DNA of 35,190 nt, taken from a virus. A model generated the notes under the pieces. It had not been told where the DNA came from. It ran no database searches and saw nothing but the letters and a program-made list of their open reading frames with translations. Shown here piece by piece: positions 20,932-25,756 of the stretch. How positions within the stretch are numbered: the first letter of the stretch is position 1; each line of letters begins with the position of its first letter. Both the position numbers and the translations under genes were made by a program. Where the stretch lies: the IMG/VR virus record IMGVR_UViG_3300020442_000003, positions 1 to 35,190 of that record. One strand, 5' to 3'.

Positions 20932-22326
20932 TTATCCTACGAAAATATAATATAGTCTTCCGATTGATGAACCAGTCTCAGCACAATCAATAAATGTTCC
21001 AGAAGAAGTGTTTACATTACCACTAGATGCAGTTTGAATATAACCACTGCTAATTATTTGTCCTGCACCAGATACAGTAATAGCTACATTTCCATGACCA
21101 CTATTACCACCACCACCTTTGATTGCGATACGAGTTATTGCTGGAGTAGTAATTAAGTAATTTTGATGTTGTGTGTTGTGTCCAGAGCCACCACCAGCAT
21201 AAAAATAAAAGTTGTCAGTACCTACACCAATTCCAACTCCATAATAATAACTTCCTGCATTGGTAACTAAGTCGTTATTCCAACCACCACCGGGATTGTT
21301 ATTTCCACCAGATGCACTATTAAGAACATCTAAATGGTCTGTGTAAATATCATCTAATGCACCAGTAAATAATGATGAATAACTAGAACCAAAAGCTTGA
21401 TAAAGCATGTATGAGTTTGAACTGTCGCCAGTATATGTGCCATCAAAATCGCAGTATACTTGTTTAGCTGTTCCATCAACTGTTATCCAGTAAGCACCAT
21501 TTGTAATATTAGGATCTGCTGTTTTAATTGCAGCTGCATTTGAAGCAGGATAACTTTGAGCAGAGCCGGGTGTAGTTAAAATTTGAATATTAAATTGTCT
21601 GTCAGAAGTTTTTGAATTTGCTGTTGCTCTTACTGTAAAAGTGTAAGTCGTAGGAGATCCGGGATTGGTTATCGTTCCAGTAATTTGACCATTTGCTGAA
21701 TCTAAACTTGTGCCAGTTGGTAAACTTCCAGAAACAACAGAATAAGAAATTGTATCTCCTTCTGGGTCTGTTGCAACTACTGTTGCATGAGTTCCAGTAT
21801 TATTAAAAGGTATAGAAGCAATGTTCCCAGCAGCAGTTGTCCAGTTTGGATCATTATCAACATTTATTTGATCAGCTAAACTTCCTTGTGTTCCAGTTGA
21901 TTTAGCTATTTTAACATCGTAAGGCTCTTTTGAATCAACAAAAGAAGATTTTGCAATTACTGCTGTGATTTGGGTAGCACTATCAATTGTAGTTGATGAT
22001 GCAAAAACTTCAGTTCCATCACTACCTACGAATGAAGCTGTATCACCTGCTGAAAAATTTTCTCCAGTAATTACAAATGTTTGATCTCCACCAGCAGCAC
22101 TAGCAACTTCAGTTACATCAACAGAAGAAATAACTGGAGATGGTTCAATAGTAACAAAGCTATTCAAACCTCTGCCTTCAAATTTTCCAGTAGTAGAATT
22201 AAATCTTAATTGACCTTGAGTAGATCCTCTTTGAGCAGTTGTACCTGTAGCAAGTTTAGTACCTTCAGTACCAACATCTACTATGTTTTCAAATTTAAAA
22301 TCAGCAATATCTCTTGCTTTAGTCAA
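20932..22326 (-). CDS. Tail fibre/receptor-binding protein with Ig-like and fibrinogen-like domains
   Basis: A 464-residue protein with distinct modules. The N-terminal region (1-55) has TTAQRGSTQGQLRFNSTTGKFEG, a common phage tail attachment block. An IPT/TIG-like Ig domain spans about 60-160 (FVITGENFSAGDTASFVG). A putative He_PIG Ig domain follows (about 175-245, TDPEGDTISYSVVSGSLPTG). A fibrinogen C-terminal-like domain begins near 260 (NGAYWITVDGTAKQVYCDFD) and leads into a Gly-rich end. Such modules bind surface glycans. It is the last of three consecutive receptor-type genes and the next genes are lysis genes. Confidence 0.8.
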   Translation of the reverse strand: MTKARDIADFKFENIVDVGTEGTKLATGTTAQRGSTQGQLRFNSTTGKFEGRGLNSFVTIEPSPVISSVDVTEVASAAGGDQTFVITGENFSAGDTASFVGSDGTEVFASSTTIDSATQITAVIAKSSFVDSKEPYDVKIAKSTGTQGSLADQINVDNDPNWTTAAGNIASIPFNNTGTHATVVATDPEGDTISYSVVSGSLPTGTSLDSANGQITGTITNPGSPTTYTFTVRATANSKTSDRQFNIQILTTPGSAQSYPASNAAAIKTADPNITNGAYWITVDGTAKQVYCDFDGTYTGDSSNSYMLYQAFGSSYSSLFTGALDDIYTDHLDVLNSASGGNNNPGGGWNNDLVTNAGSYYYGVGIGVGTDNFYFYAGGGSGHNTQHQNYLITTPAITRIAIKGGGGNSGHGNVAITVSGAGQIISSGYIQTASSGNVNTSSGTFIDCAETGSSIGRLYYIFVG

Positions 22327-22620: not shown

Positions 22621-23445
22621 TTAACTTTTCTTATAATGAAACATCTCAACATTATGCAATCTGTGATTACCACTTGCATTTGTATGTTCATAATTTATGT
22701 ACCACCAGTTTCCAGTTGAGTAGGTAGCAGCAGCTTGTTCTGCATAATATTGAGTACCAACAGTTAAACTTGTGCAAGGTAATACAAATGACTTGTTTGC
22801 TCTAAACCAGACTGCCGAACCAGCATTTGTTCCATAGGTGCTTCTTCCATCATAATTTAATTTTGTATCACCTGAACCTAAAGTAGAGCTTGTGCCTAAA
22901 TTCATATAGACATCTCCAGCAGTAGTGTATCCAGTATAAATTGTTGTGCCATGCATGAATAAAATAAGGTCGTCTGTACTTGTTGGAGTAAATGTAACAG
23001 TATTTCCTCCAGCTATATCAAGATAATCTTGTGATGTTGTTCCACCAACATTAGTTTGATAATTATAACTATCGTAAGCATGAAAAGTGTAAGTACCGCC
23101 ACCACTTGCTGTAACCCAAGTTGGTGCTGTTGCACCTCCATTCATCTGCAAAGTTTGATTTGCTGTACCTTTTGGCAGTCTTTGCAAACCAGAGCCATCA
23201 CGATAAAGCATATCGCCTTCAGTTGTTAATGTTGTTGTTAAGTCAGTACCATCTGTACCATCTGTACCTGCACTAGACATTTGTTCCCAGTAAGTAGTAT
23301 TTGTTGGAACATTTCCTGTAGAAGCTAAAATACAAACGTATGAACTTCCAGAATGAGAAACAACGTCATCTACTGCGTAAGAAGTTCCGCTGTTATACGG
23401 ACCTTTCCAATTGAATTTTATAGAACCTAAATTAACACTAGCCAT
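22621..23445 (-). CDS. Tail fibre/receptor-binding protein with carbohydrate-binding module
   Basis: A 274-residue protein. The N-terminal domain (about 8-55: FNWKGPYNSGTSYAVDDVVS, YVCILAS, TYWEQMS) follows the W..GxYxxGTxYxxxDVVxxxGxSYxC...W pattern of chitin/carbohydrate-binding modules (CBM5/12-like). A linker with GTDGTDGTD and an RDGSGLQRLPKGTANQTLQMNG tail-joint segment (about 87-110) follows, and then a beta-rich C-terminal domain with a YTTAGDVYMNLG segment. It is the second of three receptor-type genes. Confidence 0.8.
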   Translation of the reverse strand: MASVNLGSIKFNWKGPYNSGTSYAVDDVVSHSGSSYVCILASTGNVPTNTTYWEQMSSAGTDGTDGTDLTTTLTTEGDMLYRDGSGLQRLPKGTANQTLQMNGGATAPTWVTASGGGTYTFHAYDSYNYQTNVGGTTSQDYLDIAGGNTVTFTPTSTDDLILFMHGTTIYTGYTTAGDVYMNLGTSSTLGSGDTKLNYDGRSTYGTNAGSAVWFRANKSFVLPCTSLTVGTQYYAEQAAATYSTGNWWYINYEHTNASGNHRLHNVEMFHYKKS

Positions 23446-23467: not shown

Positions 23468-25756
23468 TTAAATTGTTGCAACTAAATTTCCATTATTATT
23501 TATGCTAAAAGTAAAGCCACTAGCACTAAATAAAACATCATCAAATGCTGCATATTGACTATCACTTATATTATCTGCTCCGCCATTTGTAGTAATAACT
23601 CTTAAAGAATTATTAGCAGGAACAGGTGTATTTGCTTGACCACCCATACCAGAGTGAGAAGAGCAATAGTAATATAAAGTAGGTGCGCCACTTGCTACAA
23701 CTATAGTTACTTGTGTTGAGCTGTTATGGGTTACACCTGTTGTATATTCTGAGCCACTATTATGCGTACCATCTGAAGTCGTTGAAAATTTAAAAGGATG
23801 TGCAGAAGGATAATTAAATACATAAGTATTACCCTCGTATAATTCTAAAGTATCTTGTTGTACTCCATCTATAAAATATTTATTTGATCCACCAACTGAT
23901 TGAACAGTAACTGTTTTAACTAAAGTTGATGGAGAATAATATGTTTCAAATCCATATACTTCAGCAGAACTTGCGTTACCGGGTTGAAATGAACCTGCAC
24001 TAGCATTGTAAGTTAATACTTGACCATCTGTTACTCCACCAGTTGATACATCGGTTGCGTCATTAATACTAAAGTTTGCTAATTGGAAAGTTCCAAATGC
24101 TATAATATCTACAACATCTGTTCCAGAAGTTCCAATTGGAGTTGCAAATACGATTGATGTTCCAGAAGTTACAGTAACATCTGAACCATTAACCATTTTA
24201 ACACCATTTAAATATACATCTACAAATCCTGCATCATAAGCAAGTGTATTTAAATTATCATCTGCACCAGTAATTGTAGTAGTTGAACTAGAAACTGTGT
24301 ATGTAAACCTGCTCGATGTTCCGTTCACACTTGAGCCAGCAGGAATCCACCCACTAGAAGAGTAAACTTTCATGGTTTGTGAAGTCGTATCAAAATAAAG
24401 ATCTCCCACATCCAGTGCGCTTCCATCTGGATCTTGAGTTGGAGCTGATGCACTTGGTCCAAGATAGATATTTGCAAAAGCGTTAATGTCGGCAAGATTA
24501 TTTGCTGCAGTATTAACTGAAGCTATTGATCCACCCACTAAATTAACATTCGCTATTGAACCTGCAGTAGTTCCTATATTATTTGAACCTGTTAAATCTG
24601 AAGCAACTGTATTAATATTTGTTTCGTTAGCAGCTACTGCATTTATATTAGTAGAATTTGCATTAACTGCATTAATATTATTTTGATTAGTAACTGTTGG
24701 AGTTAATTGTAACCAAGTTGTAGATGCAAGATCATAAACTTTCATTACATTGTTTGTTGTATCAAAATATAATGCTCCATCTTGTAAAGCATTTCCATCA
24801 TTATCTAAAGTTGGATTAGAAGTTTTTGATCCAAGATAACTATCATCAAATAAATCTAATGTAGCTTCGGCAGCACTAGCACTTCCTGCAGCAGCCGTAG
24901 CAGAATTAGCAGCGTTAGTAGCAGAAGTCGAAGCATTTGTTTCTGAAGTTGATGCGTTAGTTTCTGAGGTAGCTGCATTTGTTTCGGATGTGGCAGCGTT
25001 AGTTGCAGACGTTGCAGCATTTGTTTCTGAAGTTGCAGCAGCAGTAGCAGAGTTCGCAGCATTCGTAGCACTTGTTGTGGCAGAAGCAGCGTCTACCAAT
25101 AAATCCCATTTAGCACTATCTGTGTTTGTAGTTAGAGGTTGACTTCCAGAAGATGTGTGGCTAGTGTTAGCCATAAAAATATTATTTGTGCTTGTGTCTT
25201 TAACAATATCTCTAATTGCATAAGTTGTACCTGCAGACCAATTACCTTTGTTAGATCCTATTTCAGTTGTAACTGAAAGTTCTCCAGAGTTATCAAATCC
25301 TAAAACTTTTCCAGCTCTATCACTTGAACCTACAGTAAACTCTGTAGTAGTCATTGTATTCGTTCTTGATAATTTTAATGATCTATCAACTTCTTCTTGA
25401 AGTTGTTGAATAGACATCATAGAACGATCCAATCCCTCTTCATGTGATTCCGCAGGGAAAGGATCATTAGCAATATAATCTATTGCCTGTGTTTGCGGAA
25501 CTGCTCTTCTAATTACTACAGTTTCAGTTGAAGTTGGTATATTACCACTTGTGAAAACAATAGTTCCACCATTAGCATTTCCTGCACCTGTTACTGTATA
25601 ATGAGTTGTTAAAGTTTTAACTGTTTCGTTAGCAGAAGCATCTCTTATAATGACCTGTAAATCAGAGTCCGCAAAAATTTTAAATGTGTAGTTAAATGTA
25701 GTAAGCGTACCATTTCCAGAGTACGAATTTTTTACTGTAGTTGATGATATTGTCAT
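23468..25756 (-). CDS. Tail fibre, T7 gp17-like N-terminus with a C-terminal cupredoxin-like domain
   Basis: A 762-residue protein. Residues about 1-130 match the T7 fibre attachment domain (FNYTFKIFADSDLQVIIRD, YTVTGAGNANGGTIVFTSG, VPQTQAIDYIANDPFPAESH, EEGLDRSMMSIQQLQEEVDR). A CBM5/12-like segment (about 172-220) follows, then an Ala/Ser/Thr/Asn heptad region (223-298). Two copies of a YLG...LYFDTT...MKVY...W module are separated by NINAVA-type repeats. The C-terminus holds a cupredoxin-like domain with a full type-1 copper ligand set: His653, Cys698, His701, Met704 (YYYCSSHSGMGG). It forms the host-recognition fibre. It overlaps the gp16-like gene by 4 bases. Confidence 0.9.
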   Translation of the reverse strand: MTISSTTVKNSYSGNGTLTTFNYTFKIFADSDLQVIIRDASANETVKTLTTHYTVTGAGNANGGTIVFTSGNIPTSTETVVIRRAVPQTQAIDYIANDPFPAESHEEGLDRSMMSIQQLQEEVDRSLKLSRTNTMTTTEFTVGSSDRAGKVLGFDNSGELSVTTEIGSNKGNWSAGTTYAIRDIVKDTSTNNIFMANTSHTSSGSQPLTTNTDSAKWDLLVDAASATTSATNAANSATAAATSETNAATSATNAATSETNAATSETNASTSETNASTSATNAANSATAAAGSASAAEATLDLFDDSYLGSKTSNPTLDNDGNALQDGALYFDTTNNVMKVYDLASTTWLQLTPTVTNQNNINAVNANSTNINAVAANETNINTVASDLTGSNNIGTTAGSIANVNLVGGSIASVNTAANNLADINAFANIYLGPSASAPTQDPDGSALDVGDLYFDTTSQTMKVYSSSGWIPAGSSVNGTSSRFTYTVSSSTTTITGADDNLNTLAYDAGFVDVYLNGVKMVNGSDVTVTSGTSIVFATPIGTSGTDVVDIIAFGTFQLANFSINDATDVSTGGVTDGQVLTYNASAGSFQPGNASSAEVYGFETYYSPSTLVKTVTVQSVGGSNKYFIDGVQQDTLELYEGNTYVFNYPSAHPFKFSTTSDGTHNSGSEYTTGVTHNSSTQVTIVVASGAPTLYYYCSSHSGMGGQANTPVPANNSLRVITTNGGADNISDSQYAAFDDVLFSASGFTFSINNNGNLVATI
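24863..25090 (-). repeat. Heptad repeat region in the tail fibre gene
   Basis: About ten imperfect 21-base units encode S-x-T-N-A-A/S-T heptads (for example SETNAATSATNAATSETNAA), residues 223-298 of the fibre. It is a likely trimeric coiled-coil or shaft segment. The near-identical DNA units could recombine or slip, changing fibre length. Confidence 0.75.

Follow-up and report, generated by a model that had tools for sequence, protein, structure and literature searches.

A cupredoxin-like module with a candidate copper site in the tail fibre of a SAR11-type podovirus and in other virion proteins of marine phages

What might a complete set of type-1 copper ligands be doing near the end of a phage tail fibre? 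The question is raised by a viral sequence of 35,190 bases (hereafter the window, meaning the whole stretch of DNA that was analysed), the virion genes of which resemble those of the HTVC010P-type podoviruses of SAR11. Among isolates, Pelagibacter phage HTVC035P comes closest to it in the internal virion genes, upstream of the fibre (89.9% identity across 7.2 kb). The fibre itself belongs to the HTVC010P-type pelagiphages, given that its N-terminus, its C-terminal end and the neighbouring virion genes are all homologous to theirs; HTVC024P and HTVC028P, which serve as reference phages throughout, have been grouped with HTVC010P (PMC10504331).

Fibre gene and ligand residues

The fibre gene lies on the minus strand, and its two ends are delimited by profile matches and by alignment with related fibres:

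23468..25756, minus strand: tail fibre gene, an open reading frame of 762 aa, collinear with the annotated fibres of HTVC028P and HTVC024P
25283..25756, minus strand: N-terminal part of the fibre, residues 1-158, with matches to phrog_13893 and phrog_1640
23471..23605, minus strand: C-terminal end of the fibre, residues 718-762, from an alignment with seven relatives

The PHROG matches of residues 1-158 are tail protein families, with a best E of 4e-47, and this part presumably anchors the fibre to the virion, judging from its position. In the alignment with seven relatives, residues 718-762 are common to fibres with and without the inserted module described below. By analogy with other podoviruses, the fibre is presumably a trimer. 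Two nearby genes also encode recognizable domains: the protein after the fibre gene (window 22621-23445) has an N-terminal match to the carbohydrate-binding module CBM_5_12 at a near-threshold E of 1.6e-5, and the protein at window 20932-22326 has a putative Ig domain (He_PIG, E 3.6e-10) and weakly matches the fibrillar collagen C-terminal domain.

An initial annotation of this DNA had proposed a complete His, Cys, His, Met set in the fibre, and all four residues are found at the proposed positions of the translation (25756..23468, minus strand): AHPFKF holds His653, and YYYCSSHSGMGG holds Cys698, His701, and Met704. The distance from His653 to Cys698 is 45, and Cys698 is the sole cysteine in the fibre. 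The ligands are located as follows, with counts from the survey of homologous domains described in the next section:

23798..23800, minus strand: first ligand, His653 (His in 332 of 336 rows)
23663..23665, minus strand: second ligand, Cys698 (Cys in 330 of 330 rows)
23654..23656, minus strand: third ligand, His701 (His in 330 of 330 rows)
23645..23647, minus strand: fourth, axial ligand, Met704 (Met in 329 of 330 rows)

The same annotation had likened the site to those of azurin and plastocyanin, but the ligand spacing does not bear this out: the fibre loop reads C-x2-H-x2-M, whereas azurin has C-x4-H-x3-M and plastocyanin C-x2-H-x4-M. On sequence, the fibre loop appears closest to that of amicyanin, which we take to be CTPHPFM, rather than to either of these. 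The azurin loop CTFPGHSALM and the loop CTPHPFM are both written out in the titles of PDB entries 2fta and 2vmj. The PROSITE blue copper pattern matched neither the fibre nor any homologue; since this pattern requires Pro or Gly between the Cys and the His, its non-match shows only that the loop is unusual.

Predicted fold and conservation of the candidate site

For structure prediction with AlphaFold2, the C-terminal 165 residues of the fibre were aligned with 54 homologues from viral and genome contigs. In this longer model, mean pLDDT per block is 91-98 in the sandwich, with a value of 70 for one loop, and the last 45 fibre residues are of low confidence in what is a monomer model. The domain alone (residues 610-713, 104 residues) was predicted with a mean pLDDT of 92.0 and a pTM of 0.84. 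The cupredoxin-like domain suggested for this region is well supported by these predictions and by the Foldseek and VIA-align comparisons made with them: the model is a confident beta-sandwich, and its top structural matches in the PDB are copper proteins, including rusticyanin, nitrite reductase, laccases, pseudoazurin, and plastocyanin. The top ranks of Foldseek against the PDB were nitrite reductase, rusticyanin, plastocyanin, and pseudoazurin, the last three with a TM of 0.50-0.64 (normalized to query length), and a non-copper protein, the SO1698 peptidase, was also among its top matches. With VIA-align, the longer model was closest to rusticyanin (Z 9.8, rmsd 2.6 over 95 residues) and all 50 of the 50 matches listed were cupredoxin-fold copper proteins (Z 8.6-9.8), while the domain alone was closest to the cupredoxin domain of nitrite reductase (Z 9.2, rmsd 2.4 over 90 residues; factor VIII is also in this list); these values are modestly higher than a Z of 8, below which a match can reflect a mere common arrangement. 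The consistency of the matches gives stronger support than the Z values. Within the longer model, Cys101 is at a strand end, His104 and Met107 are in the following loop, and His56 is between two strands; the predicted secondary structure thus has the ligands where they would be expected in a cupredoxin. In BFVD, the fibre model was matched by the giant viruses Pithovirus LCPAC302 and Marseillevirus LCMAC201, through small "beta-sandwich proteins" that align with it as single domains.

From the model and the comparison with HTVC024P, the domain and the module that contains it have the following extents:

23618..23932, minus strand: cupredoxin-fold domain, about residues 609-713, from AlphaFold2 and the cupredoxin matches of Foldseek and VIA-align
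23606..23947, minus strand: inserted module, fibre residues 604-717, missing from HTVC024P between similar flanks

The domain begins about 44 residues before His653. The interval 23468-23800 that had been assigned to it therefore requires revision, as it spans His653 to the stop codon and leaves out some 40 residues at the N-terminus of the domain.

Pfam gave no cupredoxin family for the fibre, with no match to PF00127 (Copper-bind, the plastocyanin/azurin family) at E up to 1, and PF00127 matched one of 29 homologues at an E of 0.066, which falls short of the curated cut-off of the family. Nothing significant was found in a sequence search of the PDB, in which the top blue copper match was a pseudoazurin (E 0.46), and neither the single sequence nor a profile matched an amicyanin there at E up to 10. 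Because the Pfam and PDB sequence searches gave no significant cupredoxin, the evidence for one comes from the fold and from conservation. A profile alignment against eight alphaproteobacterial blue copper proteins gave an E of 1.2e-4 and a probability of 55%, with the His, Cys, and His in register.

Conservation was assessed by a profile search over the open reading frames of 290 loci plus the window, 291 sequences in all. The search returned 336 domain rows, of which 330, mostly from marine phages, extend to the Cys-His-Met loop; these rows comprise 266 distinct sequences, which form 13 groups at 50% identity. The initial annotation had called for a survey of all four ligands across homologous fibres, and its outcome is favorable: the full His, Cys, His, Met set is kept in 329 of the 330 domains, in fibres and in other carriers, and the fibre domain shares with them the conserved His...Cys-His-Met order of a type-1 copper site. 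The four ligand columns, at 98.8, 100, 100, and 99.7%, are among the most conserved of the domain, in counts for which the rows share ancestry and some loci were retrieved by DNA patterns covering all or part of the Cys-His-Met loop; one of the locus searches made no use of this loop. The spacing is C-x2-H-x2-M in 226 of the 329 domains (window included), and C-x2-H-x3-M in the other 103. A single copy has lost ligands (L281, frame starting 1513, residues 134-241): its first His is replaced by Asp and its Met by Leu, while the Cys and second His are retained. Taken together, we regard it as close to certain that the fibre contains a predicted cupredoxin fold with an intact ligand set, and as probable that this putative site binds copper.

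Module mobility, carriers, and cellular relatives

The module is present or absent as a unit in homologous fibres. The HTVC024P fibre is 80-89% identical to the window DNA at fibre nt 1-1145, 1231-1809, and 2152-2289, and is without the 342 bases that encode residues 604-717, having a few unrelated residues in their place. A short junction instead of the module also occurs between the same flanks in the fibres of HTVC031P, Gjalp, and HTVC025P, and the module is present in those of HTVC028P, EXVC032P, and S30-C28. Fibre ends vary between close relatives: the HTVC035P fibre (L345 2501-3883) is much shorter, at 460 aa, and does not match the C-terminal part of the window fibre. The earlier placement of the domain at the fibre tip holds in part, in that the module is near the C-terminus, but 45 conserved residues come after it.

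The module is also found outside of fibres. A tail-tube protein (L020:2393-5203) has an inserted module with 79% DNA identity to that of the window fibre; the DNA match to the fibre is limited to the module (fibre positions 1840-2135), and the carrier protein has 25-30% identity with the tube protein encoded in the window. The domain was also located in a lambda J-like tail protein, in proteins that match the baseplate wedge connector, in baseplate proteins of cyanophages, in virion structural proteins, and, as two modules, in a 1217-aa protein that has an amidase-like part (L050:1502-5152). The PHROG profiles that match the domain (677, baseplate wedge connector; 708; 6005; 30742; 27200; 693) represent families named for whole proteins, and in the profile library they have no copper or cupredoxin annotation. 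A search of phage records matched the domain in 221 of 50,697, including 213 from Synechococcus, Prochlorococcus, or unnamed cyanophages, four from Pelagibacter phages, two from records that are named as marine viruses, one from an uncultured phage, and one with its host unspecified; a search of plasmids gave no domain match. By these comparisons, the cupredoxin domain is a mobile virion module that is exchangeable among unrelated virion proteins.

Relatives of the domain also occur in cellular genomes. Three small alphaproteobacterial genomes (L313, L314, and L315, frames starting 1087, 1078, and 1039) encode proteins of ∼430 aa in which an unrelated N-terminal part is followed by two tandem copies. 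Gammaproteobacterial lipoprotein-like proteins (L336-L344) contain one copy each, with a Cys-x2-His-x2-Met loop, and the first of these is the closest lipoprotein-like relative of the phage module found (L336, E 6.6e-38). The Cys-His-Met loop is retained in both the alphaproteobacterial and the gammaproteobacterial relatives. A 373-aa frame on a SAR116 single-cell contig (L105:3935-5053) combines the cupredoxin domain with an RTX-type calcium-binding repeat and DUF5648. In the family of a SAR11 host genome (247 genomes), ordinary blue copper proteins are encoded by 68 genomes and the domain is matched in four, of which three are phage fibres and the fourth (L347, a 469-aa frame) looks like a phage structural protein by its sequence; on these numbers, SAR11 chromosomes were rejected as a general source of the domain. 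Many of the matches in metagenome-assembled genomes are probably phage contigs.

Possible roles and comparison with known systems

The explanation that we favor, and to which we give somewhat more belief than doubt, is that of an exchangeable, probably copper-binding cupredoxin module of ∼105 residues that is located just before the conserved fibre end and would have a role in host attachment. Each chain would hold one copper ion, with amicyanin-like loop spacing, and the presumed trimer would have three such sites near its distal end. Because virion protein folds in the host cytoplasm, copper loading would probably take place after lysis, on release from the cell. The domain would then help the virion to stay on the cell surface, and the metal would give the loops at the ligand end a fixed shape. 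For the attachment role taken by itself, belief and doubt are evenly balanced. It is suggested by the position of the module near the fibre end and by the presence-absence variation, as is typical for parts that recognize hosts. Phages with module-free fibres that infect the same host strain weaken it, since the module must then be dispensable for infection in general; so do the copies in tail-tube and baseplate proteins, which do not obviously bind receptors. A wider scenario, in which a copper-binding cupredoxin module has been shuffled among the tail, fibre, and baseplate proteins of ocean phages and the surface proteins of marine bacteria, with seawater copper aiding host recognition, seems unlikely as a whole.

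Also unlikely is a metal-free, Ig-like beta-sandwich spacer that lengthens or decorates virion proteins and keeps the ligand residues for packing. The use of the module in many virion proteins would suit such a spacer, the candidate metal site is itself a prediction, and the L281 copy still reads as an intact domain despite its substitutions. However, loss of ligands in just one of 330 domains, across 13 groups at 50% identity, is difficult to reconcile with a spacer, and packing alone poorly explains an invariant Cys that is also the only one in the fibre.

The ligand set could also bind a metal other than copper, and an ion such as zinc, acquired from the host cytoplasm and stabilizing the virion protein, is an improbable version of this. 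The cytoplasm, in which phage proteins fold, offers zinc more readily than copper. A structural metal in a phage fibre also has a precedent in the iron of the T4 gp37 HxH motifs (PMC11705849). Nonetheless, a Cys, two His, and a Met that follow the order seen in cupredoxins, within a cupredoxin fold, constitute the canonical copper site, and cupredoxins fold metal-free (apo-pseudoazurin, 1pzc, is among the structural matches), such that no stabilizing metal would be needed.

More doubtful again is a copper lure, in which the copper-loaded module mimics a copper carrier of the host and docks on a partner in copper uptake or on a copper-protein partner. An iron "Trojan horse" has been proposed for phage tails (PMC11705849), and the blue copper proteins of the SAR11 family, the related domains in bacterial surface-type proteins, and the location of the module near the fibre end are all in keeping with the idea. 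The absence of a known receptor counts against it, as do the infection of the same host strain by phages with module-free fibres and the tail-tube and baseplate copies. Finally, such short motifs can occur randomly, but a chance motif in a low-complexity fibre is ruled out for practical purposes by the fold prediction and by near-invariance over hundreds of homologues.

Among the most abundant phages on Earth are those that infect SAR11 and marine cyanobacteria, only a minority of which have a known receptor. A conserved, modular domain with intact copper ligands in their tail proteins offers a simple, testable handle on whether copper matters in adsorption or virion stability. As hundreds of further marine phages share the domain, a candidate metal site in attachment proteins can now be put to the test. 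Virions have been argued to be an iron ligand in seawater (PMC11705849); if copper is bound by the module, they would be a copper ligand as well.

Cupredoxins are known, as are metal sites in phage fibres in the case of iron (PMC11705849). In the open-access papers searched, bioRxiv preprints aside, no title or abstract described phage tails as having a conserved set of type-1 copper ligands, and databases may already label some carriers cupredoxin-like. Rusticyanin, pseudoazurin, plastocyanin, and the N-terminal domain of three-domain nitrite reductase are the best structural matches and share the fold and ligand types of the fibre domain; they differ from it in having 11-23% identity and no phage context. 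Their ligand loops also differ in length from that of the fibre domain. Among HTVC010P-type phages, HTVC028P, HTVC024P, and HTVC035P have the same gene, flanking fibre sequence, and the same adjoining gene for an internal virion protein; the module is present in HTVC028P and missing from HTVC024P, and HTVC035P has the shorter fibre. The fibres of T4 (gp37) and alterophage R22Y have octahedral iron sites made of HxH motifs (PMC11705849), and are thus alike in having conserved metal ligands inside a phage fibre. In contrast, the candidate ligands of the window fibre are within one folded domain, and an HxH iron site was rejected, as no two of its His (52, 105, 200, 653, 665, 677, and 701) are two residues apart. 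Solved amicyanins do not match the fibre domain in sequence, but amicyanin and the cupredoxin variants given its loop (PDB 2ux6, 2fta, 2vmj) have the same ligand order, the same C-x2-H-x2-M spacing, and the cupredoxin sandwich; whereas amicyanin is a free periplasmic electron carrier, the domain in the window is part of a phage fibre.
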